Source of the DNA: Candidatus Lindowbacteria bacterium RIFCSPLOWO2_12_FULL_62_27
GTDB taxonomy: Bacteria; Lindowbacteria; 2-12-FULL-62-27
Direction: 5' to 3'
Assembly (NCBI GenBank): GCA_001784175.1
Contig: MFPR01000004.1
Coordinates: forward strand, 1-64,000
DNA: 64,000 nt
Below the pieces are notes generated by a model. That model had not been told where the DNA came from. It saw nothing but the letters and a program-made list of their open reading frames with translations, and did not search any database. A program made the translations under genes and the position numbers. Shown here piece after piece: positions 9,131-32,583 of this stretch. Position 1 is the stretch's first letter. Every line of letters starts with the position of its first letter.

Positions 9131-9808
9131 ATGTTTAACAATCTTCCGCAAAATATCTCAACCTATGGCGCGGACATCGACGGGATACTGTACCTGATTT
9201 ACGCCATCGTCGGGTTCTTCTTCGTGACGATGGAGGGGTACCTCGTCTATGCGGTGGTGCGATACCGCCGCCGGGAGGGCGTCCGGGCTGTGTATCAGAC
9301 GGGCGAAACGTGGCGCGAGATGCGCTGGGTGGTCGGGCTGGTGGCGGTCGTGGTGTTTCTCGATTTTCTGATCGACTTTCGTGGCGCAGACACGTGGGCG
9401 AAGGTGAAACAGGATTTTCCCTCCGGAGATGTCGAGATTCTGGTCAAGGCCAAACAGTTTGCGTGGACGTTTGTCTATCCGGGCGCGGACGGGCAGTTCG
9501 ACACGAAGGACGACCTGACCGTGCCGAGGATTCTACACGTGCCGGTCCACCGCAAGATCCGCCTGACGCTCACATCCGAAGACGTGATCCACAGTTTTTG
9601 TCTGCCGGAGGTCCGGCTGAAGCAGGACATTCTGCCGGGGCGCCGGACGCCCGCATGGTTTGAGGTCACGCGCACGGGAACCTTCAGCCTTGTCTGCGCC
9701 GAGCTGTGCGGGCTCGGCCACACGAAGATGCTCGGCGTGCTGGAAGTCCACGACGACTCCGGCTATGAACGCTGGCTGGCCGAAACGGCGAAGGAGATGT
9801 TCGAATGA
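9131..9808 (+). CDS. coxB: cytochrome c oxidase subunit II
   Basis: 225 residues with two N-terminal membrane helices and a C-terminal cupredoxin domain carrying the CuA site: His154 (DVIHSF), then C189-x3-C193-x3-H197-x2-M200 (CAELCGLGHTKM). Accepts electrons from cytochrome c and feeds subunit I. No fused cytochrome c domain. Its stop overlaps the start of subunit I (ATGA). First gene of the long operon that continues into the nap genes. Confidence 0.95.
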   Translation: MFNNLPQNISTYGADIDGILYLIYAIVGFFFVTMEGYLVYAVVRYRRREGVRAVYQTGETWREMRWVVGLVAVVVFLDFLIDFRGADTWAKVKQDFPSGDVEILVKAKQFAWTFVYPGADGQFDTKDDLTVPRILHVPVHRKIRLTLTSEDVIHSFCLPEVRLKQDILPGRRTPAWFEVTRTGTFSLVCAELCGLGHTKMLGVLEVHDDSGYERWLAETAKEMFE

Positions 9809-11505
9809 CGAACGATCCGCACGGCCCGCAGAAATTCATATGGAAATACATCTTATCGACCGACCACAAGATGATCGCCAAGCAGTATCTGCTGACGGGG
9901 CTGGTCATGGCGCTGGTCGGCGCCTTCACCGCCTATCTCATGCGCTGGCAGCTCGGATATCCGAACACGAATGCGCCCGGATGGGGATTGGTCACGCCGG
10001 ACAAGTTCAACATGCTGGTCACGATGCACGGCACCATCATGGTCTTCTTCGTCGGCATGCCGCTTCTCGTCGCGGCCTTGTCGAATTTCGTCATCCCGCT
10101 CCAGATCGGCGCGCGCGACATGGCCTTCCCGCGTCTCAACATGCTCTCATACTGGATTTTCGTTCTCTCGTGCGTGGCGCTGCTCGCGTCGTTTTTCGTG
10201 CCCGGCGGCGCGCCCGCCGGCGGCTGGACCGGTTATCCGCCGCTGTCGGCGAGCGAGCAGTACACGGGCGTCCACTGGGGCATGGTGCTGTGGATCACGG
10301 CCCTGGCGCTGGAGTTCGCGTCCTTCACGATGGGCGGGATCAATTATCTCGCGACCTTCATGTGCCTTCGCGTTCCCGGCATGACGTACTTCCGGGTGCC
10401 GATGGCGACGTGGTTTCTGATCGGCGCGTCTTTGGCGTTTTTCTTTTCGGTCGGTCCCCTGATTGCCGGCGCGGTGATGCTGCTTTTGGACAACGTGGCG
10501 GGCACGGGATTTTATATTCCGGCGCAGGGCGGCGAGCCGCTCCTGTGGCAGCACCTGTTCTGGTTTTTCGGCCATCCGGAGGTCTACGTGATTTTCCTGC
10601 CGGCGGTGGGCTGTGTTCTGGAGATTCTGCCGGTTTTTTCGCGCAAGCCCATTTTCGGATACCGGGCGATCGTGTGGAGCATGGGGGCGGCCCTGGCGCT
10701 GTCCTACATTGTTTGGGCGCATCACATGTTCATCAGCGGGATGAATCCGCGCCTCGCGACGCCGTTTTCGATCACGACCATTCTGATCTCGGTCCCGTTC
10801 GCCGTCATCATCTTCTGCATGTTGGCGTCGCTTCGGCAGGGATCGATCCGCCTCGACACGCCGATGCTCTGGGGACTCGGGTTTCTGGCGACCTTCCTCA
10901 TCGGCGGGCTGACCGGCATATTCTTAGGCTCGGCTTCGGCCGACATTTACCTTCACGACACCTATTTCGTGGTCGCGCACTTCCATTACACGTTCTTCCC
11001 ATCGGTCTTTTTCGGCGGATTCGCCGGCATCTATTTCTGGTACCCGAAACTGTTCGGACGGCGGTACAATGAAACGCTCGGCAAAATCCATTTCTGGATG
11101 ACCTTCATTTTCTTCAACGCCACCTTCTGGCCCATCTTCCGTGTCGGCGCCGGCGGGATGCTCCGCCGCATCGCCGACCCCACGCAGTACAGGATCCTCG
11201 ACCAGTTCAAGGAAATGAATTCGATGATCAGCGTCGCGGCCTTCATCCTGATCCTCGGGCAGGTTCCGTTCGTGTGGAATTTTTTCTGGAGCATGTTTCG
11301 CGGTCCCGCGGCGGACGCCAATCCCTGGCGGGCCGGCACGCTCGAATGGCTCGCGCCCTCGCCGCCTCCGCACGGAAACTGGGGACCGGGTCTGCCGACC
11401 GTCTACGTCGGGCCCTACGAGTACAGCCGGCCGGACATGGCCGACGATTTCGTGCCGCAGTACCGGCCGGTCGGCGTGCTGGGCGGCCCAGCGGGTCAGG
11501 CCTGA
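9805..11505 (+). CDS. coxA: cytochrome c oxidase subunit I
   Basis: 566 residues, haem-copper oxidase catalytic subunit that reduces O2 and pumps protons. The FGHPEVYVIFLP segment has the CuB histidine, the D-class Glu and the cross-linked Tyr; HHMF holds two CuB histidines, and HDTYFVVAHFHYT holds the haem ligands. This is an A-type oxidase. The C-terminal 60 residues are Pro-rich and soluble. It overlaps subunit II by 4 bp and subunit III starts 2 bp after its stop. Confidence 0.96.
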   Translation: MTNDPHGPQKFIWKYILSTDHKMIAKQYLLTGLVMALVGAFTAYLMRWQLGYPNTNAPGWGLVTPDKFNMLVTMHGTIMVFFVGMPLLVAALSNFVIPLQIGARDMAFPRLNMLSYWIFVLSCVALLASFFVPGGAPAGGWTGYPPLSASEQYTGVHWGMVLWITALALEFASFTMGGINYLATFMCLRVPGMTYFRVPMATWFLIGASLAFFFSVGPLIAGAVMLLLDNVAGTGFYIPAQGGEPLLWQHLFWFFGHPEVYVIFLPAVGCVLEILPVFSRKPIFGYRAIVWSMGAALALSYIVWAHHMFISGMNPRLATPFSITTILISVPFAVIIFCMLASLRQGSIRLDTPMLWGLGFLATFLIGGLTGIFLGSASADIYLHDTYFVVAHFHYTFFPSVFFGGFAGIYFWYPKLFGRRYNETLGKIHFWMTFIFFNATFWPIFRVGAGGMLRRIADPTQYRILDQFKEMNSMISVAAFILILGQVPFVWNFFWSMFRGPAADANPWRAGTLEWLAPSPPPHGNWGPGLPTVYVGPYEYSRPDMADDFVPQYRPVGVLGGPAGQA

Positions 11506-11507
11506 TC

Positions 11508-12095
11508 ATGGACGGCGCGGCGCACTCGGATTCGGCGCAGATGCCGACGGCGCACTTCACCGCCAAGCTGGCGATCTGGTGGCTGATCGGGTCGGAGATC
11601 ATGATCTTCGGCGGGCTCATCGGATCGTTCATCCTGTTTCGGCTGGCCCGCCCGCAGTGGGCGGAGATGGCGCATCATCTCAGCGTGCCCATCGGGTCCT
11701 TCAATACGCTGATTCTGCTGACCAGCAGCTACACCATGGTACGGGCCTTCGTGTCCTCCGGACGCCGCGACCGGACCGCCACCTGCTGGAATCTTCTGGT
11801 GACGGCGCTTCTGGGACTCACGTTTCTGTGCGTGAAGGGATACGAGTACGCCGGAAAATTCTCGCACGGATATTACCCGAACGCGGGACTCTTCTGGGCG
11901 TTTTATTTCACGATGACCGGCCTGCACGCGCTGCACGTGCTGATCGGGATCATCGCGATTCTCATTCTGTTCGTGTTCGGCCTGCGCGACCGGCTGTGGC
12001 CGATCGCGAGCCGCGTCGAGTTCACGGGCCTCTACTGGCATTTCGTCGACGTGGTGTGGATCTTCCTATTTCCGTTGTTGTATCTGACATCATGA
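11508..12095 (+). CDS. coxC: cytochrome c oxidase subunit III
   Basis: 195 residues with about five membrane helices. Motifs SFNTLILLTSSYTM, KGYEY and FTMTGLHALHVLIG are typical of subunit III, which stabilises subunit I and supports proton uptake. The short length (about 195 residues) is usual for bacterial five-helix forms. ATG at 11508; stop overlaps subunit IV start. Confidence 0.93.
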   Translation: MDGAAHSDSAQMPTAHFTAKLAIWWLIGSEIMIFGGLIGSFILFRLARPQWAEMAHHLSVPIGSFNTLILLTSSYTMVRAFVSSGRRDRTATCWNLLVTALLGLTFLCVKGYEYAGKFSHGYYPNAGLFWAFYFTMTGLHALHVLIGIIAILILFVFGLRDRLWPIASRVEFTGLYWHFVDVVWIFLFPLLYLTS

Positions 12096-12382
12096 CCGAG
12101 TCCGGCGCGGCGCGCCCCCGGTATTTCACGATCTGGGTGTGGCTGGTGGTATTGACGCTCGCGTATCTCGCGGAGCGGCTGATCGGCGTGCCTCACCGGA
12201 TCGCGCTGGGCCTGGTGTTCGGAATTGCGCTCGTGAAGGCGCTCTTGGTGGCATGGAACTACATGCATCTTCGGCACGAAAGCCGGATGATTTTCGTCAT
12301 TCTTCTCATTCCGATTCTTCTCTTCGCGATTCTGGTCACGCTCTTGCTCCCGGACATCGCATTCGTCGGAGTCGGGAAATGA
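12092..12382 (+). CDS. cytochrome oxidase subunit IV-type membrane protein
   Basis: 96 residues with three predicted membrane helices and the family pattern ALVKALLVAWNYMHLRHE, typical of the prokaryotic oxidase subunit IV family (COX4_pro-like). Overlaps both its neighbours by 4 bp in the oxidase operon. Confidence 0.85.
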   Translation: MTESGAARPRYFTIWVWLVVLTLAYLAERLIGVPHRIALGLVFGIALVKALLVAWNYMHLRHESRMIFVILLIPILLFAILVTLLLPDIAFVGVGK

Positions 12383-12969
12383 CGGCGGCGCCCGCGGACT
12401 CGATCGCGTCCGACCGGCCCGCGCCGCTCGTTTCCAAAGTGGGGATGGCGCTCTTCATCGGCACGGAAGCCATGTTTTTCGCCGGCCTCATCAGCGCCTA
12501 CCTGGTGTTCCGGGTCGGCAATCCGAACTGGCCGCCGGCCGGCCAGCCGCGGCTGCCGGTGGAATCGACCGCGTTCAACACGCTGATCCTGCTCCTCAGC
12601 GCCGCGTTCTGCCATCGGGCGGTCTCGACGCTCCGCGCCGGTCTCGCCAGATCCTCCGCGTACTGGCTGGGACTCACTGCCGTCTTCGGCCTGTTTTTTC
12701 TCGTCCTTCAGGGCCGGGAATGGATCCGGCTGGTGCAATTCGGCCTGACGCTGACCTCGAGCGTTTACGGCGGCCTTTTTTATACCCTCATCGGCGTCCA
12801 CGGTCTTCACGTGCTCGCCGGTACGGCGCTGGTTCTGTACGTCCTGAAACGATCCGTGGAGGGCCGGTATTCGGCGGCGTATCCGCTCGGCGTGGAGCTT
12901 GCCCGAATGTACTGGAACTTCGTCGTCGCCCTCTGGCCGGGCCTCTACTTCCTGGTTTACCTCTTGTGA
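12379..12969 (+). CDS. second cytochrome oxidase subunit III-like protein
   Basis: 196 residues, again a five-helix subunit III: LFIGTEAMFFAGLISAYLVFR, STAFNTLILLLSA, LQGREW and FYTLIGVHGLHVLAG are clear subunit III motifs. It is a diverged paralogue of the gene at 11508, separated from it only by subunit IV. Such duplicated subunit III genes also occur in operons for other haem-copper enzymes, so this copy might serve a different partner. It overlaps subunit IV by 4 bp. Confidence 0.88.
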   Translation: MTAAPADSIASDRPAPLVSKVGMALFIGTEAMFFAGLISAYLVFRVGNPNWPPAGQPRLPVESTAFNTLILLLSAAFCHRAVSTLRAGLARSSAYWLGLTAVFGLFFLVLQGREWIRLVQFGLTLTSSVYGGLFYTLIGVHGLHVLAGTALVLYVLKRSVEGRYSAAYPLGVELARMYWNFVVALWPGLYFLVYLL

Positions 12970-12971
12970 TC

Positions 12972-13172
12972 ATGCGCCGCATGGCGCTGTTCACGTTTGT
13001 GTTCGCCGTTGTCTCGCCGGCCTTCGGCTGTCCGCTCTGTTTCGGTTCAACGCCCTATGAGTTGGGTCTCTACTGGTCGGTGCTTTTTCTTCTTCCCGTG
13101 CCGTTTGTCATTGTCGGTGTGCTGATCGCATGGATTCGCCGTCAGTCTGACGGAAATATTAAGGAGGGATAA
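12972..13172 (+). CDS. small exported/membrane protein with CPLC motif
   Basis: 66 residues: a signal-like N-terminus ending at AFGCPLCFGS, then one membrane helix. The CPLC pair just after the signal suggests a redox or copper-binding role, perhaps in oxidase assembly. Unknown family. It starts 2 bp after the second subunit III and ends just before the napA ribosome-binding site. Confidence 0.6.
   Translation: MRRMALFTFVFAVVSPAFGCPLCFGSTPYELGLYWSVLFLLPVPFVIVGVLIAWIRRQSDGNIKEG
13161..13167 (+). promoter_or_regulatory. strong Shine-Dalgarno of napA
   Basis: AAGGAGG lies 8 bp before the napA ATG at 13176 and overlaps the 3' end of the small upstream gene. It is the strongest ribosome-binding site within the cox-nap gene string and marks where translation is re-initiated independently. 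Confidence 0.7.
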
Positions 13173-13175
13173 AAC

Positions 13176-15500
13176 ATGAGTGTTTACGGAGACCGCCGCG
13201 ATTTTCTTAAAAGAATGGCCTGGTATTCGTCCGCCGGCGCCGCGATATCCCTGATGCCGGGGGTGTCAATGGAGGCGTGGAGCGACTTCGAAGGCGACGC
13301 GGCCGAAATTGTGTGGAAGAAATCGCCGTGCCGATTCTGCGGCACCGGCTGTGGCCTTCTGATCGGCCTTGCGAGGGACCGCGCCGTCGCCGTGAAAGGC
13401 GATCCGAACTCGCCCGTCAACAAGGGGCTCTGCTGCGTCAAGGGCTACCACTCCGTCCAGATGCTGTACGGGAAGGACCGCCTGACGAAGGCCTTGGTGC
13501 GAAAGAACGGCGAGCTCGTCGAAACGCCGATTCAAGACGCGCTCGATCTTGTGGCCGCCAAAATGAAGGAGACCATCGGCGCGCGCGGCAAGGACGCCGT
13601 CGCGATTTACGGGTCCGGCCAGTGGACCATTCCCGACGGATACGTCGCGACCAAATTTTTCAAGGCGGGACTGGGGACGAACAACATTGAAGCCAACGCG
13701 CGGCTCTGCATGGCCAGCGCCGTGACGGGATTTATGACCACGTTCGGGTTGGACGAGCCGATGGGCTGTTACGACGACATCGATCACGCCGACACCTTTA
13801 TCCTCTGGGGCAACAACATGCCGGAAATGCATCCGATTCTTTTTTCCCGTGCGCTCGAAACCCGCCGCCAGAAGGAGTCGGGACTCATCATCGACCTCGG
13901 CACCCGGACAACCCGGGCCAGCTACGGCGCCGACAAATCGATCCTCTTCAAGCCGCAGACGGACCTGGCGCTGGCCAACGCGATCTGCCGGGAACTCTTC
14001 CGCACGGGGCTGGTCAACCAGGATTTCGTGAAGAAGCACGTGACGTTCAAAAAAGGCAAGACCAACATCGGATACGGCCTCGAGGACAAATTCAAATTCG
14101 ACGACGAGGCCGTCGAGATCGGCGTGAGGGAGTATCAGGCCTTTCTCGAGGACTACACACCGGAAAACGTGGAAAAAATTTCCGGCGTCCCGGCGACGGA
14201 CATCCGGTACCTGGCGCAACTGTACGGCGACCCGAAACGAAAGGTTGTCTCGTTCTGGTGCATGGGAATGAACCAGCACACGCGCGGCACATGGATCAAC
14301 AACCTCGTCTACAACCTGCACCTTCTGACCGGAAAAATCTCCACGCCCGGCAACAGCCCCTTTTCCCTCACCGGCCAGCCCAGCGCCTGCGGCACGTCAC
14401 GCGAGGTCGGCACGTTCACGCACCGGCTGCCGCACGGCGTCGTGACCAACGAGCACGATCGCGAGATGGCCGCCAAAATCTGGAAAGTGCCGGTCGAAAA
14501 AATCCCGGCGAAGCCCACCTACCACACCGTCGAGATGTTCCGGGCGCTGGACCGCGGGGACATCCAGTTTCTCTGGATACAGGCGACCAACCCGTTTCTC
14601 ACGATGCCGAAACTGCGGCGGTACCGGGACGGCGCCAAAAAGGAGGGCCGGTTCATCGTCGTGTCGGACGTCTATCCCACGCCGACCACCGACATCGCCG
14701 ACGTGATTTTGCCGTCCGCGCTCTGGATCGAGCGCGAAGGCATGTTCGGCAACGCGGAGCGCCGCACGCAGCATTTCGAGAAGATGGTCGACCCGCCCGG
14801 CGACGCGATGCCGGACGGCTGGCAGCTCATCGAGGTCGCGCGGAGGCTCGGGTACGGAGAGCTTCTGCCTTATTCGAAGAAGACCTGGGTTCAGGAGGTC
14901 TGGGAGGAGTACCGGCAGTTTCAACACGGCCCCGCGCATGAGATGGCGTCCTACGAGGACCTCCGCCGCCAGCCGGGCGTGATGTGGCCGCACGTGAACG
15001 GCAAGTCCACCAAGTGGCGGTACAACACGGCATACGATCCGGCGGCGAAGGGAGAGGGTGAATTTGATTTTTACGGGAACAAGGACCACCGCGCGGTCGT
15101 CTGGCAGCGTCCGTATGAGCCGCCGCCCGAATCGCCGGATGGGGAGTTTCCGTTCTGGCTCTGCACCGGGCGCGTGCTCGAACACTGGCACAGCGGGTCA
15201 CTCACCCGGCGGATCCCCACGCTGCACCGGGCCGTGCCGGAGGCGTATGTCGAGATCCATCCCGCCGACGCGGACCGGCTCGGCATCCGCAACAAGGACC
15301 CGGTCCGGCTGACGACCCGCCGAGGGACCCTGACGCTGCCGGCCAGCATCAATGGCCGGGCCGTGCCGCCGGCCGGCATGGTGTTCGTGCCGTTTTTTGA
15401 CGAGCGCTACCTGATCAACGAGCTGACGCTCGACGCATTCTGCCCGATCTCGAGACAGCCCGACTACAAGAAGTGCTCCGTGAAAGTGGAGCGCGCATGA
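13176..15500 (+). CDS. napA: periplasmic nitrate reductase catalytic subunit NapA
   Basis: 774 residues. Reduces nitrate to nitrite in the periplasm. A Tat motif (RRDFLK at 7-12) precedes the [4Fe-4S] ligands C52-x2-C55-x3-C59-x27-C87. The Mo ligand is C178 in NARLCMASAV, the hallmark of NapA. The C-terminal molybdopterin-binding region (GRVLEHWHSGSLTRR) also matches NapA. Formate dehydrogenase is excluded by the NapA-type LCMAS motif and the NapB partner. No napD (chaperone) gene is seen nearby. Stop overlaps the next start. Confidence 0.95.
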   Translation: MSVYGDRRDFLKRMAWYSSAGAAISLMPGVSMEAWSDFEGDAAEIVWKKSPCRFCGTGCGLLIGLARDRAVAVKGDPNSPVNKGLCCVKGYHSVQMLYGKDRLTKALVRKNGELVETPIQDALDLVAAKMKETIGARGKDAVAIYGSGQWTIPDGYVATKFFKAGLGTNNIEANARLCMASAVTGFMTTFGLDEPMGCYDDIDHADTFILWGNNMPEMHPILFSRALETRRQKESGLIIDLGTRTTRASYGADKSILFKPQTDLALANAICRELFRTGLVNQDFVKKHVTFKKGKTNIGYGLEDKFKFDDEAVEIGVREYQAFLEDYTPENVEKISGVPATDIRYLAQLYGDPKRKVVSFWCMGMNQHTRGTWINNLVYNLHLLTGKISTPGNSPFSLTGQPSACGTSREVGTFTHRLPHGVVTNEHDREMAAKIWKVPVEKIPAKPTYHTVEMFRALDRGDIQFLWIQATNPFLTMPKLRRYRDGAKKEGRFIVVSDVYPTPTTDIADVILPSALWIEREGMFGNAERRTQHFEKMVDPPGDAMPDGWQLIEVARRLGYGELLPYSKKTWVQEVWEEYRQFQHGPAHEMASYEDLRRQPGVMWPHVNGKSTKWRYNTAYDPAAKGEGEFDFYGNKDHRAVVWQRPYEPPPESPDGEFPFWLCTGRVLEHWHSGSLTRRIPTLHRAVPEAYVEIHPADADRLGIRNKDPVRLTTRRGTLTLPASINGRAVPPAGMVFVPFFDERYLINELTLDAFCPISRQPDYKKCSVKVERA

Positions 15501-16174
15501 TCTGGGAATCGGACCGGCGGATTTTTTTCGTCGGCCTGGGAATCGCCGCGATGGCCGTGCTGGTCATGTTCGTGGGTCCGGAACTTTTCGATTACCGGCC
15601 GGTCGCGTCGCGCGCCGACCCCCGCAGCGTCGACCTTCCGACCTCGAAACGCGATGTGGCGGCGGAGGCGGAGCCGATGCGGAAGCCGGCGTACGTCGTC
15701 CCGGCGCGCGCCGACGCGGACACGCGGACGTGGACCAAGTACGAAAGCCGCCGGGCCTTTCCCGGCGCGCCGCCGGCCATTCCCCATCCGGTGTCTGACG
15801 GGCCGGCATGGGAAAGCGGGAAAGTCTGCACCGCATGCCACGCCAGGGGCGGATATGTCCCGAAATACAACGCGTACGCCCCTGTGACGCCGCATCCGAA
15901 TTTCTCCTCTTGCCGCCAGTGCCACGTGCCGCGCCTGACAGACAAGTTATTTCGCGAAACCGCCTGGGCCACCGTCGCGCGTCCGAAAACCGGCCTCCGG
16001 GCCATGCCCGGCGCGCCGCCGGCGATCCCGCATTCCCTGCAGATGCGCGAAAACTGTCTCGCCTGCCATTCGGGTCCCAGCTCGGTGCCGGCCATCCGGT
16101 CGAGCCACCCGGACCGCGGCAACTGCCGGCAGTGTCATGTGCCGCGAGTCACCGATGAGCCGTTTGAACGGTGA
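15497..16174 (+). CDS. duplicated NapB-like tetrahaem cytochrome c
   Basis: 225 residues. A signal/anchor helix (residues 9-27) is followed by two tandem NapB-like units. Each has PGAPPAIPH (haem-ligand His), one CxACH and one CRQCHVPR: CXXCH at 111-115 and 139-143, then at 187-191 and 210-214. Ordinary NapB is dihaem; this chain carries four haems by internal duplication. It is likely the electron donor to NapA, its upstream neighbour. The first helix may remain as a membrane anchor. Confidence 0.85.
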   Translation: MIWESDRRIFFVGLGIAAMAVLVMFVGPELFDYRPVASRADPRSVDLPTSKRDVAAEAEPMRKPAYVVPARADADTRTWTKYESRRAFPGAPPAIPHPVSDGPAWESGKVCTACHARGGYVPKYNAYAPVTPHPNFSSCRQCHVPRLTDKLFRETAWATVARPKTGLRAMPGAPPAIPHSLQMRENCLACHSGPSSVPAIRSSHPDRGNCRQCHVPRVTDEPFER

Positions 16175-16179
16175 AACAT

Positions 16180-16743
16180 ATGACGATACAGTTCTTTGCC
16201 ATTCTCCTCCTCGCTTGCATCGGCTGCGGCAGCGAGCATCACATGTCATTGATGGAAAAAATCGAGCGCGCGGCGCCGGCGGCAGCCGCACCGGCGACGG
16301 ACTCGGGCGTGCGCCTGTTTTCGGTCCTGAGCCGCCAGGACAAGCTGGCCCACTTTCCCTGCCGAGGCTGTCATACCGACGGATTCAACCTGTCCGCCGC
16401 GGCCAAGCGCCCGCAGGAGAGGCGATCGCACTGGGACGTGGAGCTTCGGCACGCGCCGGCCGACGTCATGACCTGCGCGACCTGTCATGACTACCGCGAT
16501 TTAAATCATTTGAATAAAAACAACGGCGAGGCCGTGTCCTTCGACGAGCCCTCCGCGGTCTGCCGGTCATGCCATTTCCAGCAGTTCAAGGACTGGTCCG
16601 GCGGCGCGCACGGGAAGCAATTCAAATCCTGGACTCCGCCGCGCGTCCGCTACAACTGCACCACCTGCCACAATCCGCATCGCCCGGCGTTCCAGAAACG
16701 CTGGCCGGTGACGTATCCGAGCGTGCCGAGGAGGTATCCATGA
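16180..16743 (+). CDS. tetrahaem cytochrome c lipoprotein
   Basis: 187 residues. Lipoprotein signal with lipobox LLACIGC; four CXXCH motifs (CRGCH, CATCH, CRSCH, CTTCH). The spacing resembles small NapC/NrfH- or NapM-like multihaem carriers without the membrane helix. It lies between the NapB-like gene and the Fe-S/NrfD genes, so it may connect the quinol-oxidising module to NapB/NapA. Start chosen at ATG 16180; a GTG at 16171 overlapping the previous stop is possible. Confidence 0.8.
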   Translation: MTIQFFAILLLACIGCGSEHHMSLMEKIERAAPAAAAPATDSGVRLFSVLSRQDKLAHFPCRGCHTDGFNLSAAAKRPQERRSHWDVELRHAPADVMTCATCHDYRDLNHLNKNNGEAVSFDEPSAVCRSCHFQQFKDWSGGAHGKQFKSWTPPRVRYNCTTCHNPHRPAFQKRWPVTYPSVPRRYP

Positions 16744-17750
16744 GCGGCGGGGCGAAGGCATGGTTTCAATCGTGGCTGCGGAAATGGAACGGCCCGGCGG
16801 GCGGTTGCGGTGCAGGTCTCTTGTCGAAATCCATCGGCCGGCGCGACGCGCTGAAAATGCTCGGCGGCGGCGCGGCGGCGAGCGGGGCGGTCGTGAACGC
16901 GTTCGCGCCGGTGAATCTCCTCTCCGGCTCATCCGAAGAGCGGGAAAAGGCCGTGATCGACTGGAAGGAATTTTTCAAAACCAACTACCGTTTGATGAAC
17001 GACCGGGAGCGCGCGGACACCATCGAGCGACTCGAACGCAAATACAAACTCGAACGCAACCTCGACGTGAAGATCAGCACCGCAGGGCCGCTGCCGAACG
17101 TCCTGTACGGATACGCCTTCAACCTGTCCAAGTGCAAAGGCTACCGCGAATGCATCCGGGCCTGCATTCAGGAGAACAACCAGGACCGCGCCAGCAACAT
17201 GCAATACATCCGGATTTTCGAAAAGCCCATGGGGTCGATGAGCGTGGAAAGCGGCGACGCCCGGTATTATCACGAGGTGCCGGCCGAGGGCCACTTCTAC
17301 ATGGGAACCCAGTGTTTCCAGTGCGACAATCCGCCCTGCGTGCGGGTCTGCCCGACGGGCGCGACGTGGAAGGAACAGGACGGGATCGTCGTGATCGACT
17401 ACGACTGGTGCATCGGCTGCCGGTACTGCCAGGCCGCCTGTCCCTACTGGGCGCGGCGGTTCAACTGGAAGGAGCCGACGGTCCCCAACGAGGAGGTCAA
17501 TCCGAACCAGCACTATCTCGGGAATCGCCTGCGAAAAAAAGGCGTGATGGAAAAATGCACGTACTGCATCCAGCGCACGCGCCAGGGACGCCTGCCGGCC
17601 TGCGCCGAGGCCTGTCCCACCGGCGCGCGCACGTTCGGCAATCTCCTCGACCCCGGCAGCGAGATCCGGTACATCCTCGCGCACAAGAAGGTCTTCCGGC
17701 TGAAGGAAGACCTGAATACCGAACCGAAGTTCTGGTACTACATGGACTGA
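16740..17750 (+). CDS. NapG/NrfC-like ferredoxin-type Fe-S subunit, Tat-exported
   Basis: 336 residues. Tat-like signal (GRRDALKMLGGGAAASGAVV). Four [4Fe-4S] cysteine sets are visible: CKGYREC...C, CFQCDNPPCVRVCP, CIGCRYCQAACP and CTYCIQ...CAEACP. This pattern is typical of the electron-transfer subunit paired with an NrfD membrane protein (HybA, NrfC, DmsB-type). With the next gene it should oxidise quinol and pass electrons to the tetrahaem cytochromes and NapA. It overlaps both neighbours. Confidence 0.88.
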   Translation: MSGGAKAWFQSWLRKWNGPAGGCGAGLLSKSIGRRDALKMLGGGAAASGAVVNAFAPVNLLSGSSEEREKAVIDWKEFFKTNYRLMNDRERADTIERLERKYKLERNLDVKISTAGPLPNVLYGYAFNLSKCKGYRECIRACIQENNQDRASNMQYIRIFEKPMGSMSVESGDARYYHEVPAEGHFYMGTQCFQCDNPPCVRVCPTGATWKEQDGIVVIDYDWCIGCRYCQAACPYWARRFNWKEPTVPNEEVNPNQHYLGNRLRKKGVMEKCTYCIQRTRQGRLPACAEACPTGARTFGNLLDPGSEIRYILAHKKVFRLKEDLNTEPKFWYYMD

Positions 17751-18970
17751 TGCCAATGACTCTCATCTATTTCCTCCGGGACGCCTTGCGTGAAGCCACG
17801 AGCGGCGGGCGCAAATATCATCTCTGGATGGGCGCGCTCACGCTCGTCATGCTGACCGGCGCCTACGCCTACTCGATCCAGTTCCGCGAAGGGCTTGGCG
17901 TGACCGGCATGACCGACCACGTGAGCTGGGGTCTCTACATTTCGAACTTCACCTTTCTCGTCGGCGTCGCAGCGGCGGCCGTCATGCTCGTGATGCCGGC
18001 CTACATCCTGCACGACGTCGATTTCAAGCGCGCGGTGATGCTGGGCGAGGGCGTGGCGGTGTCGGCGGTCGTCATGTGCCTCTGTTTCGTGATGGCGGAC
18101 ATGGGCGGGCCGCACCGGGGATGGCATCTCATCCCGGTGATCGGCTATTTCAACTGGCCGCAGTCGATGCTGACGTGGGACGTGATCGTGCTGAACGGAT
18201 ACCTCGCGCTGAATCTGCTCATTCCATTTTACATCCTGTTTTCGCATTATCGAAACCGCGATCCCAATCCAACGCTCTACGTGCCGTTCGTGATCCTGTC
18301 GGTTTTCTGGGCGGTCAGCATTCATCTCGTGACCGCCTTCCTGTACGCGGGGCTCGTCGCCCGGCCGTTCTGGAACAGCGCCCTGATGGGGCCGCGGTTT
18401 CTCGCGTCCGCCTTCGCCGCGGGCCCGGCGCTCATCCTGCTGGCGCTCGCCGTCATCCGCTCGCAGACGTCCTTCGCGATCGAGGACACGACGATCCGGA
18501 AACTCAGCCTGGTCATCACGGTGGCCGCGCAGATCAATCTGATCATGCTGGGCTGCGAGGTCTTCAAGGAATTCTACTGGCCATCGGAACATAGCGCGAG
18601 CGCCGTCTACCTCTTTTTCGGCCACCACGGCCATCATGCGCTGAATCCATGGATATGGACGTCCATCGCGATGAATGTCGTCGCCACGGGGATCATGACC
18701 GTTCACTCGGCGCGGCGATGCCATCACCTCCTGTATCCCGCCTGCGTCCTGCTGTTCACGGCGATCTGGATCGAAAAGGGCATGGGACTCATCGTGCCGG
18801 GATTCATCCCCTCCCCGCTCGGCGAGCTGGTCGAATACATGCCGACATGGATCGAGGTCGCGGTGACGCTGGGCATCTGGGCGACCGGGCTCTTCGTCTT
18901 CACCGTGCTGGTCCGGGTCGCCCTGCCGATTGAACTTGGGCGCCTCCGGGCGCCGGGGACGAATCGATGA
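17750..18970 (+). CDS. NrfD/PsrC-family quinol-interacting membrane protein
   Basis: 406 residues with about nine to ten membrane helices and no Cys/His haem motifs, as expected for the NrfD/HybB family. It anchors the Fe-S subunit and binds quinol. It replaces the usual NapC or NapH quinol oxidase in this nap cluster. The start at 17750 shares its A with the previous stop; an ATG at 17756 is an alternative. The stop overlaps the kinase start. Confidence 0.85.
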   Translation: MPMTLIYFLRDALREATSGGRKYHLWMGALTLVMLTGAYAYSIQFREGLGVTGMTDHVSWGLYISNFTFLVGVAAAAVMLVMPAYILHDVDFKRAVMLGEGVAVSAVVMCLCFVMADMGGPHRGWHLIPVIGYFNWPQSMLTWDVIVLNGYLALNLLIPFYILFSHYRNRDPNPTLYVPFVILSVFWAVSIHLVTAFLYAGLVARPFWNSALMGPRFLASAFAAGPALILLALAVIRSQTSFAIEDTTIRKLSLVITVAAQINLIMLGCEVFKEFYWPSEHSASAVYLFFGHHGHHALNPWIWTSIAMNVVATGIMTVHSARRCHHLLYPACVLLFTAIWIEKGMGLIVPGFIPSPLGELVEYMPTWIEVAVTLGIWATGLFVFTVLVRVALPIELGRLRAPGTNR

Positions 18971-20361
18971 CAGGCGCGCAACCCGTCGTGCGGTCCGGCA
19001 GTCCGTGGCCTTTCTGGACAGGGCTTGCGTTGCAGCTCATCCTTGCGTGGGCGGCGGTTTTCGGCGCCTACGAGCTGATCGAACGATATTATCTTCAGGA
19101 TACCGGCCCCGCGCTCTTGCATCGGCTGCACATTCTGCGCGGGAGCGGCACGTCATTTTTGCTGGCGCTTCTGGCCGCGCGCGCCATGTACCGGCGGCGG
19201 GAGGAGCTGATCGTCGAGGCGAAGAACCGGCTGGCGGCGGAAAAATCGCGGCAGGACGAGATTCTGGCGGGACTCGGCGCCGGCCTCATCGTGCTCGACG
19301 CGTCGTTCAAGGTGACGTACGCGAACGCCCAGGCGCAAAAATGGCTGGGGACGAAACTCGCGAATTGCCTCTGCATCGTCGAGGATTGCCCGATGGGCCG
19401 GGACACCGGCGTGTGCCCGGCGCGGGTTTCGGCGCTTCAAAAAGGATGGGTGTCGTTTGAGGAAAAAATTGAAACGCCCGACGGGACGCGATACCTGTAC
19501 ATCACGGCGTCGCCCATCGGAGGCGGCAACGGCCGGCCGCCGGACGCCATCATCGAACTCGTTCAGGACATCAGCCCCATCAAGGCCATGGAGGCGAAAC
19601 TCCGGCAGACGATCATGGCCGCGCGCGTCGGCGCCATCGCCGCCGGCGTCGCACACCAGCTCGGCAATCCCCTCGCCTCGCTCACCGCGGCGGTCGAACG
19701 GCTTCTCAGCCTGGGCGCCGACAAGCAGGACGCGTACGCGCGATACCTGCGGCGCATCGAGGTCGAGGCCGAGCGGGCCGTCCACATCGTGCGGTCCCTG
19801 ATGGACCTGGCGCGCCGCGTCAAGGACCAGGAGTCGCGCCCGGAAGACTGCACGCATCAGGCCGACCTTCACGCAACCGTCACCGAGGCGGTCGAGATCG
19901 TTTCGGAAACATACAGCGAGATTCGTTCCTTTCTCAAACTCCATCTGCCCGACCATCCCCTGCCGGTCCGGGCCAACCCGACGGACGTCCGGGAGGTGCT
20001 GGTGAACCTGCTGGAAAACGCCGTCGAAGCCATGGTGGGTCGCGACGCGCAGCGGCTGGCCATCCATGCCGCCGAGGACCGCGGATCGGTGCTTCTGCAG
20101 GTGTGCGACAGCGGGCCGGGCATCGAAGAGGCGGCTCGCGACAAGATTTTCGAACCATTTTTCTCGACGCGCCGGGAGGGCACCGGCCTGGGCCTTTATC
20201 TGTGCCGGCAGATCGTCGAATCCTACGGTGGAGAGATCCGCGCGGACAACCTGCCGGCCGGCGGTGCGCGGATTCTGGTCCGGTGGCCGGCCGGTCGGCC
20301 GGCCGGTCGATCGCCGGTCGCCGGTGGCGCGCACACCGGCGCGCAGGCGGATCATCCATGA
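18967..20361 (+). CDS. membrane histidine kinase with Cys-rich PAS domain
   Basis: 464 residues. Two N-terminal membrane helices flank YELIERYYLQD...LLHRLHILRG (about 35-59). A PAS domain follows with four cysteines C134, C136, C141 and C150, which could hold a metal or Fe-S cluster or sense redox/thiophiles. The phospho-acceptor is H230 (GVAHQLGNPL), and the ATPase domain has ENAVEA, DSGPGI and GTGLGLYL. It is coupled by ATGA overlaps to the nap module upstream and to the NtrC-type regulator downstream, so it likely controls this operon. The extreme C-terminus is low-complexity. Confidence 0.88.
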   Translation: MTGAQPVVRSGSPWPFWTGLALQLILAWAAVFGAYELIERYYLQDTGPALLHRLHILRGSGTSFLLALLAARAMYRRREELIVEAKNRLAAEKSRQDEILAGLGAGLIVLDASFKVTYANAQAQKWLGTKLANCLCIVEDCPMGRDTGVCPARVSALQKGWVSFEEKIETPDGTRYLYITASPIGGGNGRPPDAIIELVQDISPIKAMEAKLRQTIMAARVGAIAAGVAHQLGNPLASLTAAVERLLSLGADKQDAYARYLRRIEVEAERAVHIVRSLMDLARRVKDQESRPEDCTHQADLHATVTEAVEIVSETYSEIRSFLKLHLPDHPLPVRANPTDVREVLVNLLENAVEAMVGRDAQRLAIHAAEDRGSVLLQVCDSGPGIEEAARDKIFEPFFSTRREGTGLGLYLCRQIVESYGGEIRADNLPAGGARILVRWPAGRPAGRSPVAGGAHTGAQADHP

Positions 20362-21758
20362 CCTCGCCCGCGCAGGCGTCGCAATCGGCGCCGTCGGCGC
20401 CTCATCCGCACCCGCGGCCGCTCCGGATCCTTCTGGTGGACGACGAGGCGGGCTTTCGGGAAATGGCGGCGGAACATCTCGAATCGGCCGGCTTCGAGGT
20501 CGAGCAGGCGGGCGGCGGGAGAGAGGCGCTGGAGATTCTGAAGGTGCGGACGTTCGATCTGGCGGTATTTGACCTCAAGATGCCCGACATGAGCGGGCTG
20601 GACCTTCTGACCAGGGTAAAATCCGACTTGCCCGAAATCGAAGTCCTCATTCTGACGGCGCACGGCGGCGTCGACACCGCGGTTGAGGCGATCCGGCGCG
20701 GCGCGCACCATTACCTTGTCAAACCGATCAAGCTCGCGGAACTGCAGGCTGCGCTGGAACGCGCGGCCGAGAAAACCGCGCTGAACCGCCGGCAGGCCGG
20801 GGAAACGGCGGTCCGCGCGCACCGTCAAAGCTACAGGGCCGGCGAATTTCTAGCGACGGGTCCGCGCACGCGGGAGCTTTTGGAAACTACGGCGCACGCC
20901 GCGGCGGGCGCCTTTCCGGTCCTGATCGAGGGCGAGACCGGCACGGGCAAGGAGCTTCTGGCGCAGTTCGTCCATCGGCGATCCCCGCGACATCAGGGCC
21001 CGATGGTGGCAGTCAACTGTGGGCTTCTGTCCGAAAGTCTCCTCGAGCGGGAGCTGTTCGGTCACAGCAGGGGCGCGTTCACAGGCGCCAGCGACAGCCG
21101 CGCGGGTCTGTTTGAGGCGGCCGACGGCGGCACCCTCTTTCTGGACGAGATCGGAGAGGCCAGCCCCAACGTGCAGGTGGCGCTGCTTCGCGCCATCGAA
21201 ACCGGCATGTTCCGGCGGATCGGGGAAGTTCGGGAGAGGTTTGCGGATGTGCGCATCGTCGCGGCCTCCAATCAGCCGCTGGCGAAATCCGCCGAAACCG
21301 GCAGGTTCCGCACCGATCTCTATCATCGCCTGAACGTCGTGAACCTTCGCATCCCGCCGCTGCGCGAGCGGCCGGAGGAGATCGTGCCGCTGGCCGAGAC
21401 GTTTTTGTCCCGGCTGTGGCCCGAATCCCGGTTTCTGGACGACGCCCGGGCGGCGCTCCAGTCCCATCCATGGCCCGGGAACGTCCGGGAATTGCAGAAC
21501 GCCATCGAACGCACCGTCTATTTATGCCGCGCAGGATCGGCCGGAAAAATGACGGGAACCGTGACGGCGCAGATGCTGGGCCTGACCGCCGCCGTGCCGC
21601 CGCCGGGTCCGGCCATGGATCTCGACGGGGCTGAACGCGCCCACATCCAGGCCACGATCCTGCATTTCAACGGCGACAAGCGCGCCGCCGCGGGCGCGTT
21701 GGGCATCACGCTCCGGCATCTGTACCGCAAACTCAAGAAACACGATTTGAGCGTCTGA
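20358..21758 (+). CDS. sigma-54-dependent NtrC-family response regulator
   Basis: 466 residues. Receiver domain (VDDE, phospho-acceptor D72, VKPI), AAA+ domain with Walker A GETGTGKE (192-199), an intact GAFTGA loop (239-244) that contacts sigma-54, and a Fis-type helix-turn-helix at the C-terminus ([18 protein letters not shown]). Cognate of the kinase before it. It should activate a -24/-12 promoter, which I did not find with confidence near this operon. Confidence 0.93.
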
Positions 21759-22238
21759 ATGGATCCCGGGCGCCGCCCCCGCGTCCTGTTTCTTTGCACG
21801 GGCAACTCGTGCCGGTCCCAGATCGCCGAGGGTCTCATGCGGTCCTTGTACGGCGACCGGTACGATGTGTTCAGCGCGGGGACCCGACCCGCCGCCGGCC
21901 ATGGATGGCCAAGTGCCGAAGGTGACAGGGATGTCAGACCTTCGGCCGCCGTCCATCCCTGGGCGGTGCGGGCCATGCGTGAAATCGACATCGACATTTC
22001 CGGCCGACGCGCAAAATCCATCGCCGATCTGCCGGGCGCGCCGTTTGATATCGTGGTCACGGTTTGCGACAACGCCCATCGAGAGTGCGTAAGCCTGCCG
22101 GCCCGGTCCCGCAGAATCCATTGGCCGATCCCGGACCCCGCCGCCGCCGGCGGCACGCAGCGGGAAATCGAATCGGCGTTCCGGCGCGCGCGCGAACTCA
22201 TCCGGGAGAATCTGCTGGCCGAATTCGGCAAACCTTGA
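21759..22238 (+). CDS. ArsC-like low-molecular-weight phosphatase-fold protein
   Basis: 159 residues. P-loop CTGNSCRSQ (C-x5-R) near residue 13 and the second redox cysteine pair CDNAHREC, as in thioredoxin-coupled arsenate reductases (ArsC of the LMW-PTP type). An insertion (AAGHGWPSAEGDRDVRPSAA) relative to typical ArsC sits after the first helix. It starts directly after the regulator stop and is followed by a Crp/Fnr gene, so it may act in regulation rather than detoxification. An arsenate reductase role is inferred from motifs. Confidence 0.75.
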   Translation: MDPGRRPRVLFLCTGNSCRSQIAEGLMRSLYGDRYDVFSAGTRPAAGHGWPSAEGDRDVRPSAAVHPWAVRAMREIDIDISGRRAKSIADLPGAPFDIVVTVCDNAHRECVSLPARSRRIHWPIPDPAAAGGTQREIESAFRRARELIRENLLAEFGKP

Positions 22239-22251
22239 TAGAAAAACCCGC

Positions 22252-22941
22252 ATGGCCGAGCTGACGAAGTTCTGGTACCTGAAACGGATCAATCTCTTTT
22301 CCGAGCTGACGCGCGAGGATATGCAGATGATGGCCGACATGACCACCATGTCCTCCTTTCCCGCCAAAGAGGTCCTCTATTTTCCGGGCGACCCCTCCGA
22401 TTCGGTCTTTCTGCTTAAAGAGGGCAACGTCAAAATTTCTCAGCTCACGCCGGACGGAAAAAAGCTGACGCTCGACATCCTCAATCCCGGGGAACTTTTC
22501 GGCGAGGCCGCGATCACGGGGCCGGACGCGGAACGGGACACGATGGCGGAGGCGCTCACGCCGGTGCATGTGTGCGTCGCGTCGAAAGACCGGTTCATGC
22601 AGTTTCTGGATCGCCGGCCGGCCCTCGTGATGCGGATCACCAAGCTCATGGGATTTCGATTGAAGAGAATCGAGACCCGTCTGCAGTCGCTCCTGTTCAA
22701 ATCCGTGCCGGCGCGCCTCGCGGAACTGATCCTCCGGCTGGCCGACGATTACGGCAAAGAGACGCCGAACGGCGTCGAGATCAGCCTGAAACTGACGCAT
22801 CAGGAATTGGCCGAGCTGATCGGATCCACCCGCGAAACCACCAGCGCCATCATGGGCCGGTTCCGGGACAAAAAACTGATCGACACCGACGGCCGCCGGA
22901 TTAGCGTTCTCAACCGGCAAAAGTTGTCCGCTATCGTCTGA
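22252..22941 (+). CDS. Crp/Fnr-family transcription regulator
   Basis: 229 residues: cyclic-nucleotide-binding-like beta barrel (FPAKEVLYFPGDPSDSVFLLKEG), dimer helix and winged helix-turn-helix (LTHQELAELIGSTRETTSAIM). There is no N-terminal Fe-S cysteine cluster, so it is not a classical oxygen-sensing FNR; Crp- or Dnr-like ligand sensing is possible. Last gene of the cox-nap-regulatory string; a strong hairpin follows. Confidence 0.9.
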   Translation: MAELTKFWYLKRINLFSELTREDMQMMADMTTMSSFPAKEVLYFPGDPSDSVFLLKEGNVKISQLTPDGKKLTLDILNPGELFGEAAITGPDAERDTMAEALTPVHVCVASKDRFMQFLDRRPALVMRITKLMGFRLKRIETRLQSLLFKSVPARLAELILRLADDYGKETPNGVEISLKLTHQELAELIGSTRETTSAIMGRFRDKKLIDTDGRRISVLNRQKLSAIV

Positions 22942-29869: not shown

Positions 29870-32583
29870 CGGCAAAATACGAACCGAAGGACCACGTGCC
29901 TCTGCCTCCGAAAGATGCCAGCGTTCATACGACCGCGTGCGATTACTGCATCGTCGGCTGCGGCTACAAGGCCTTTGTCTGGCCCAAAGGACGTGAGGGT
30001 GGGCCTGGCAAAGCCGAAAACGCGCTCGGGATCGATTTCCCCGTTCCGGCGCTCTCAGGCCGATGGCCCAGTCCCAATCAGCACAACGAGTGTCTGGTCG
30101 GCGGCAAGAAACACAACGTGATCGTCCTGCCCGACCCAGATGCGACCGTGGTCAACCGCGGCGGCAATCACTCGATCCGCGGCGGATGCCTCGCGCAGAA
30201 AGTCTACAACCCCGACGGCCCGACCGCGGACCGGCTCAAGACGCCGCAGATCCGGGTGAACGGAACGCTCGTTCCGGTTTCGTGGGATGCGGCCTTTGAC
30301 ATCATGGCCGGCGTTTCACGGCACGTTCTGTCGAACTTCGGCGAGTCGGCGTGGGCGATGAAGACATATTCCTACCAGTATTTCGAAAACACCTATGCCA
30401 TCTCAAAACTGGCGTTCGAGTCCATCCAGACACCGGCCTATTCGGAGCACGACAAGCCTGGACCCGGCAACGACACGGCCGGCGTTGATGACTCGGGGAT
30501 CGTGACGTTCAGCGCGTCGTATCACGACTGGGAGCAGGCGGCCGTTTTATTTATTTCCGGCACCGATCCCTACGAGACGAAAACGATCATTTTCACGGAA
30601 TGGATGATGAAAGGCGCGCCGAACAAGATCATCATGGTCAATCCCAGGCGCACGGCCGGCGCGGCCTACGCCGAAAAAACCGGCGGGCTGTATCTGCCGA
30701 TCATTCCCGGCACTGACACGATTCTGCATCTGGCGCTGGCGCGGATCATTCTCGAAAACGGCTGGGAGGACCGCGAGTTCATCGATCACTGGATCGCGAC
30801 CAAATGGGAGATCGATTCCGGGTTCGGCCGCGGCCCCCGCAATACGCCGGTGGAGTGGCGGACGACCTGGGACAAAATCGGCGTCACCGATTTCGCCGCC
30901 TACAAAGAATGGCTGCTCGCCCAGCCGTATTCGGACTTGAACACCGCGGCGCAACTGACGGGCATCCCCGCGAAAAAAATCCGGGCGACGGCCGAACTCA
31001 TCGCCAAACCCATCGGCGGCGTACACCCGAAAACGTCTTTTGGATTCGAAAAGGGAAATTACTGGAGCAATAATTATCTGAATACCGCGTCCTTCGCCGC
31101 GCTGGCGCTCCTCTGTGGCGCCGGCAACCGTCCCGGCCGCGTGATTTCGCGTCTCGGCGGCCACCAGCGCGGCTGGGCCTCGAACGCCGCGTCTTATCCG
31201 CGCATCCAGTCGCCGAACAAATACCAGGGCCGGCGAAAACAGGAGATCGATCTGGACCGATGGGTCGAGGCCGGGCATGTCCGCTTTGCCTACGTCATCG
31301 GCACCACGTGGCTTCAGGCAATGGCCGCCAGCCAGGAACTGGCGCGGACATTCCAAAAACTTACGCGGGATAATCCTCATCAGGTTTCGTCATCGGACGC
31401 ATCTTCGGCGGTGGACGCGCTGAAAAAACGCGCCGACTCCGGCGGCATGGTCGTGGTCCATCAGGACATCTATCCGGTTGATCCGATCGCCACCGAGTAC
31501 GCGGACCTCGTGTTGCCGGCGGCCACGTGGGGCGAGGAGGATTTCTCGAGGGCCAACGGCGAGCGGCGGATCAGGCTCTATTCGAAATTTTGCGACGCGC
31601 CGGGCGAGGCCAAACCGGACTGGTGGATCATCTCGGGTTTCGCGCGGAAAATGGGGTTCAAGGATTACGACTGGAAAGATTCGAATCAGGTGTTCGAGGA
31701 GGGCGCGCGATTTTCCCGCGGCGGCGTCCTCAATTATCATCCGCTGGTCTGGTACGCCAAACAAATCGGCATGCGGGGGCATGACGTCCTGCGGGCGATG
31801 GGCACGCGAGGGATTCAGGGGCCGGTTCGGTTTAGAGAGAAACCGACGGAAAACGCCGAGTATCTGGACTACGCCGGATTTTTTTCCTCGCCCAAACGGC
31901 GCGGCATGATCGTCGGCACCAAACGCCTGCACGACCCCGATCACGATTTCGGCGCGCCGGAAGGCCCGACCGTTCACCAAAAATGGCTTTCGGCGTTCGG
32001 CTCGCACAGCGGCAAGGCGCTTCTGCACAAGACGCCGTGGGATTTGTATTCAGATTTTTTTGAACGGATCACGCCCCGCGAGGACGAGTTGTGGGTGACA
32101 AGCGGCCGGATCAACGAGCGCTGGCAGTCAGCATTCGACGATTCTCGGCGGCCGTACATCATGCAGCGCTGGCCCGGGCAATTCGTCGAAGTCCACTCGG
32201 AGGACGCCCAAAAACGCGGGATCGAAAGCGGCGACGAGGTGCTGATCTGGAGCGACGACGTGCTGATTCAAACCGGCGGATTCGTCGCCACCAAAGACGG
32301 CGAGATGACGTACACGGAACTGGAGAAGGCCGGCCGGATCCGGATCGGGCACGGCGAATTCAAAGGCGTGGCGATCGTCACCGATGACATCAGGCCCGGC
32401 GTGGTCTTCGCCGATTTTCTCTGGCCGGCCGCGCCCGCCAACAGCGTCGTCCACCGCGTTCCCGATCCGATCACACTCCGATACCGGTTCAAACTTGGCA
32501 AAGGCAGGATCAAAAAAATCGGCGAATCGCCCTACAAGAAAACGTTCGATGAAATGAGTTTCGCCCCGAGGACGGTGATGTAA
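29866..32583 (+). CDS. idrA: AioA-family molybdopterin oxidoreductase, probable iodate reductase catalytic subunit
   Basis: 905 residues. The [3Fe-4S] signature C25-x2-C28-x3-C32-x70-S103 reproduces the exact spacing known for arsenite oxidase AioA, so the family is certain. No Cys, SeCys or Ser appears where NapA has its Mo ligand, as in AioA. RLGGH (429-433) matches the AioA substrate-site Arg/His pair, but the segment near 200-210 (GNDTAGVDDSG) does not look like the AioA site as I remember it. No Tat signal; it is exported with IdrB. The length exceeds typical AioA (about 825-850). Two peroxidases upstream point to iodate reductase. Arsenite oxidase remains the alternative because arsenic genes lie elsewhere in the window. 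Confidence 0.72.
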   Translation: MTAKYEPKDHVPLPPKDASVHTTACDYCIVGCGYKAFVWPKGREGGPGKAENALGIDFPVPALSGRWPSPNQHNECLVGGKKHNVIVLPDPDATVVNRGGNHSIRGGCLAQKVYNPDGPTADRLKTPQIRVNGTLVPVSWDAAFDIMAGVSRHVLSNFGESAWAMKTYSYQYFENTYAISKLAFESIQTPAYSEHDKPGPGNDTAGVDDSGIVTFSASYHDWEQAAVLFISGTDPYETKTIIFTEWMMKGAPNKIIMVNPRRTAGAAYAEKTGGLYLPIIPGTDTILHLALARIILENGWEDREFIDHWIATKWEIDSGFGRGPRNTPVEWRTTWDKIGVTDFAAYKEWLLAQPYSDLNTAAQLTGIPAKKIRATAELIAKPIGGVHPKTSFGFEKGNYWSNNYLNTASFAALALLCGAGNRPGRVISRLGGHQRGWASNAASYPRIQSPNKYQGRRKQEIDLDRWVEAGHVRFAYVIGTTWLQAMAASQELARTFQKLTRDNPHQVSSSDASSAVDALKKRADSGGMVVVHQDIYPVDPIATEYADLVLPAATWGEEDFSRANGERRIRLYSKFCDAPGEAKPDWWIISGFARKMGFKDYDWKDSNQVFEEGARFSRGGVLNYHPLVWYAKQIGMRGHDVLRAMGTRGIQGPVRFREKPTENAEYLDYAGFFSSPKRRGMIVGTKRLHDPDHDFGAPEGPTVHQKWLSAFGSHSGKALLHKTPWDLYSDFFERITPREDELWVTSGRINERWQSAFDDSRRPYIMQRWPGQFVEVHSEDAQKRGIESGDEVLIWSDDVLIQTGGFVATKDGEMTYTELEKAGRIRIGHGEFKGVAIVTDDIRPGVVFADFLWPAAPANSVVHRVPDPITLRYRFKLGKGRIKKIGESPYKKTFDEMSFAPRTVM

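Follow-up and report, generated by a model that had tools for sequence, protein, structure and literature searches.

The locus lies on the forward strand of a 64,000-nucleotide stretch of a Candidatus Lindowbacteria contig, hereafter the window, and comes from a rarely sampled lineage whose phylum is represented by three genomes in the genome set used. Five genes follow one another in the order napA (13176–15500), a gene for two fused NapB units behind an N-terminal anchor (15497–16174, 225 aa, supported by its open reading frame and by profile evidence; hereafter tetrahaem napB), a second tetrahaem c-type cytochrome (16171–16743, 190 aa), a Tat-exported Fe-S protein related to DsrO, QrcC and NrfC (16740–17750), and an NrfD/DsrP-type integral membrane protein proposed to be a quinol dehydrogenase (17750–18970). 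Four-base gene overlaps run through the operon; the ATG start of tetrahaem napB overlaps the napA stop (ATGA) and its own stop overlaps the next gene (GTGA), so that the arrangement resembles a coupled operon. The NrfD gene overlaps by four bases the start of a gene for a PAS sensor histidine kinase, a probable regulator (18967–20361), which in turn overlaps by four bases that of a sigma-54-dependent response regulator (20358–21758); similar regulators adjoin the nap genes in loci L010, L031, L117 and L118. The operon contains no napC, napG or napH. As read by eye from the translations, an aa3-like cytochrome c oxidase cluster immediately precedes napA in the same orientation (9131–13172), and an arsC-like low-molecular-weight phosphatase gene, also assigned by eye, and a Crp/Fnr-family regulator come just after the nap regulators (21759–22941). 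A second, more distant molybdopterin oxidoreductase, a 912-aa frame which the NapA model matches weakly, is found at 30094–32253.

The napA gene encodes a 774-aa protein with a Tat signal which, by two equivalog models and its cofactor motifs, is a bona fide catalytic Mo/4Fe-4S subunit. It scores 944 bits against TIGR01706 (cut-off 930.55) and 979 against PRK13532 (cut-off 904), is 49% identical to Escherichia coli NapA, and in alignment with the latter keeps the cluster cysteines, the RLCMASAV Mo-ligand region and the Tat motif RRDFLKR. About 45–50 residues of E. coli NapA are absent from this protein, and the same shortfall is found in NapAs paired with a compact dihaem NapB, so it is not a signature of the tetrahaem partner. 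A possible sequence signature of that partnership is LPxGVV, which replaces LPADMVV in 69 of the 73 NapAs that accompany a tetrahaem NapB. A NapD-like gene is located 5' of napA in 36 of the 42 long loci; the Pfam model detects no NapD in the source genome, an absence that is unproven since the NapD of a tested relative also falls below the cut-off.

The three genes downstream of tetrahaem napB would provide a connection to the membrane. The second cytochrome carries CxxCH motifs at residues 64, 102, 131 and 163 and a lipobox-like LLAC near its N-terminus, matches Cytochrom_c3_2 above the cut-off, and has four CxxCH motifs in all 78 relatives found in the loci. The Fe-S protein has a Tat motif (GRRDALKM) and Cys motifs for about four [4Fe-4S] clusters, matches Fer4_11, and scores 183 bits against the DsrO model NF045797, just below its cut-off of 200. 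The membrane protein scores 111 bits against PF03916 and 419 bits against the DsrP model NF045798 (cut-off 350), and since it is the sole DsrP-type match above cut-off in the source genome, it looks dedicated to the nap operon. The membrane pair resembles the DsrO and DsrP components of DsrMKJOP, but its partners here are NapA, tetrahaem NapB and the second cytochrome instead of DsrMK and DsrJ, neither of which is adjacent at the nap locus, where the neighbors are the operon genes and the regulators.

This likeness raises the question of whether the operon serves some other reaction, for example on a sulfur or metal oxyanion, with NapA and NapB merely resembling parts of a nitrate reductase. 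The DsrOP-like membrane module, the many carriers that are relatives of sulfate reducers, and the service of NrfD pairs to many reductases would all fit such a role. We nonetheless consider it unlikely, given a NapA that exceeds the curated cut-offs of both equivalog models with its cofactor motifs kept, and an NrfA-like protein encoded elsewhere in the genome that could take nitrite further. The latter (G000:C10:9744-10817, locus L124) falls below the cut-off of the nitrite reductase model and is reported to contain one in-frame TGA; if intact, it could carry nitrite to ammonium.

Tetrahaem NapB consists of two tandem units, as the first-pass annotation had described from the recurrence of PGAPPAIPH, CxACH and CRQCH, and we find both in the 225-aa frame. 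Unit 1 (about residues 87–152; 15755–15952) contains, in order, PGAPPAIPH-CTACH-TPHP-CRQCHVPRLTDKLF, and unit 2 (about residues 168–223; 15998–16165) contains PGAPPAIPH-CLACH-SSHP-CRQCHVPRVTDEPF, such that the order PPxIPH, CxxCH, second distal His and CxxCHV is common to the two. The haem motifs are CTACH at residue 111 and CRQCH at 139 in unit 1, and CLACH at residue 187 and CRQCH at 210 in unit 2; candidate distal histidines are H97 and H133, and H179 and H204, respectively. The four haems proposed earlier, against the usual two, are therefore matched by four predicted haem-binding motifs, which makes the protein a NapB-derived variant and not an ordinary NapB. A membrane anchor had also been suggested, and a hydrophobic N-terminal stretch that AlphaFold models as a helix (residues 4–30, 15506–15586; block pLDDT 82–96) supports a protein held by this helix at the periplasmic face of the membrane. 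The helix is the sole confident part of the first of two models of tetrahaem NapB alone, both of low confidence overall (mean pLDDT 57 with 39 sequences and 62 with 81 sequences), and a PDB fold search with the second, 81-sequence model returned no match.

Profile searches find NapB in both halves of the chain. Pfam NapB (PF03892, cut-off 25.1) matches the whole protein over two stretches with 39.2 bits, half 1 alone with 27.6 bits, and half 2 alone with 23.1 bits (E 8.7e-5), slightly below the cut-off. A dihaem NapB profile, built separately from E. coli and plasmid-borne NapBs, aligns by hhalign with 98.1% probability to half 1 and 97.3% to half 2, in each case through all four landmarks. 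A profile built from 81 members of the family finds the solved NapB chains 3ml1_B, 1ogy_B and 1jni_A first in the PDB (E 3e-7 to 1e-4) and almost nothing else. No second NapB match was found in the source genome. Likeness to NapB is thus not confined to one half, and the reading of the first-pass annotation, a NapB duplicated within one chain, stands; its gene lies directly 3' of napA. Tetrahaem NapB shares with dihaem NapB the PPxIPH, CxxCH, second distal His and CxxCHVP of each unit and a gene that adjoins napA, also in relatives; it differs in having two units with four haem motifs and shorter loops, an N-terminal anchor helix, and different operon partners.

A tetrahaem periplasmic cytochrome encoded with NapA is also known in NapM of Desulfovibrio desulfuricans and napMADGH-type clusters, and the protein described here could be NapM under another name instead of a doubled NapB. 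Two papers (PMC5276818; PMC5317091) describe NapM as a small periplasmic tetrahaem cytochrome of nap clusters that lack NapB, accompanied by NapA, NapD, NapG and NapH. The two copies of the NapB landmarks and the NapB profile matches argue against this identity, as do the operon partners, since an Fe-S/NrfD pair accompanied by another tetrahaem cytochrome takes the place of the napG and napH of NapM-type clusters; we judge it improbable. Among the Desulfobacterota sampled, no small tetrahaem gene was found beside napA without a NapB-like protein. One Desulfobacterota genome with NapA and without a NapB-like gene has an eight-CxxCH cytochrome adjoining napA (L115:6987-8333).

The similarity of the halves to NapB, and to one another, goes well beyond the haem motifs. 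Against the dihaem NapB profile the halves score 78.9 and 64.7, whereas shuffles that preserve CxxCH average 40 and 32, with maxima of 58 and 49, and in neither half do any of 100 shuffles reach the observed score. Scores of 28–31, the level of motif sharing, are obtained when the halves are compared with the second cytochrome of the operon or with NapC. Half against half, local alignment scores 144 (BLOSUM62), and profile-profile comparison of unit 1 with unit 2 gives 93.2, where 100 CxxCH-preserving shuffles average 43 with a maximum of 59. That the protein is a generic multihaem c-type cytochrome, similar to NapB by chance through shared CxxCH motifs, is thus rejected as very improbable: weak matches to cytochrome c7, c3 and NrfH models do occur, and short haem proteins yield spurious matches, but the shuffles and the far lower scores of other multihaem control proteins, the aligned and invariant PPxIPH and second histidines, and the adjoining napA all speak against it.

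We collected 80 relatives of tetrahaem NapB from GTDB contigs, and exactly four CxxCH motifs are present in 80 of 80. No substitution of H97, H133, H179 or H204 occurs in alignments of 13, 39 and 81 sequences, and we infer from sequence that all four haems would be bis-His and low-spin. The carriers are mostly Desulfobacterota, and one named strain with the operon is Desulfosediminicola flagellatus (locus L072); others, by metagenome-bin label, belong to Kiritimatiellales, Verrucomicrobia, Nitrospirota and Rokubacteriota. Essentially all loci that extend far enough preserve the five-gene order. The N-termini of some relatives resemble cleavable signals or a lipoprotein signal and not an anchor, so the latter is probably not universal in the family.

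The nearest kin of both units appear to be compact dihaem NapBs. In a sample of 297 genomes from the phylum of locus L072, seven encode a strong NapA. A tetrahaem NapB accompanies it in two of these and a compact dihaem NapB in three; one further genome pairs it with a classic NapB, and the last has none of these. The three compact proteins are encoded in napAGHB-like operons of Desulfobacterota (L116, L117 and L118); like tetrahaem NapB they have short loops, but they comprise one unit with two haems and are partnered by NapG/NapH-like ferredoxins in place of an Fe-S/NrfD pair. In a tree of the units (SH-aLRT/bootstrap), first units form one clade (88/82, a moderate support) and second units another (92/97), these two clades are sisters (83/95), and the compact dihaem NapBs come next (88/98); since the alignment is short, the exact branching is provisional. 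The simplest history suggested by these sequences is that a compact dihaem NapB was duplicated once, ahead of the spread of the family. A recent tandem repeat is rejected, because units 1 and 2 clearly differ at the DNA level and the duplication is common to all relatives.

Taken as a whole, we consider it likely that tetrahaem NapB, born of a duplication and held at the membrane, is a wire from an NrfD-type quinol dehydrogenase to NapA. Quinol would be oxidized at the NrfD/DsrP-like membrane protein, from which electrons would pass to the DsrO-like Fe-S protein, the tetrahaem cytochrome and tetrahaem NapB, and on through the [4Fe-4S] cluster of NapA to Mo and nitrate. The assignment of the quinol step to the Fe-S/NrfD pair is drawn from homology, and such pairs serve different reactions elsewhere; which of the two tetrahaem cytochromes receives electrons first is conjectural. 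One NapB unit may dock NapA as dihaem NapB does while the other takes electrons from the neighboring tetrahaem cytochrome, and with the two roles so divided, we propose that the doubled chain would act as a longer, fixed haem wire with separate docking faces. Such a wire could serve a membrane-bound nitrate reductase whose operon is without napC, napG and napH. More tentatively, and with somewhat less than even confidence, we suggest that these systems may represent a type of membrane-bound periplasmic nitrate reductase that has gone unrecognised, in which a dedicated NrfD/DsrP-type quinol dehydrogenase feeds NapA through a tetrahaem cytochrome and the duplicated tetrahaem NapB. Some NrfD complexes have been proposed to conserve energy. 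If the NrfD partner here does so too, the reduction of nitrate by Nap would conserve energy in this organism, against the usual view of Nap.

The open literature describes dihaem NapB, and NapM in nap clusters without NapB (PMC5276818 and PMC5317091), and the open papers searched, most of them by term, yielded no description of a tetrahaem NapB or of the five-gene operon. The latter is apparently a conserved and little-described operon for nitrate respiration. Two papers report NapB or NapAB in cable bacteria (PMC10030654; PMC10926707), and these NapBs could be of the tetrahaem type, which is worth checking. A recent review calls the wiring of Nap to the quinone pool without NapC less understood (PMC12285233), and the operon is a candidate for this connection where NapC is absent. 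A napA followed by a NapB with four CxxCH motifs offers a simple annotation marker for nitrate respiration in such genomes. The family offers a clear example of a respiratory cytochrome whose electron path was doubled by gene duplication, a change fixed early in a family that is distributed across relatives of sulfate reducers.
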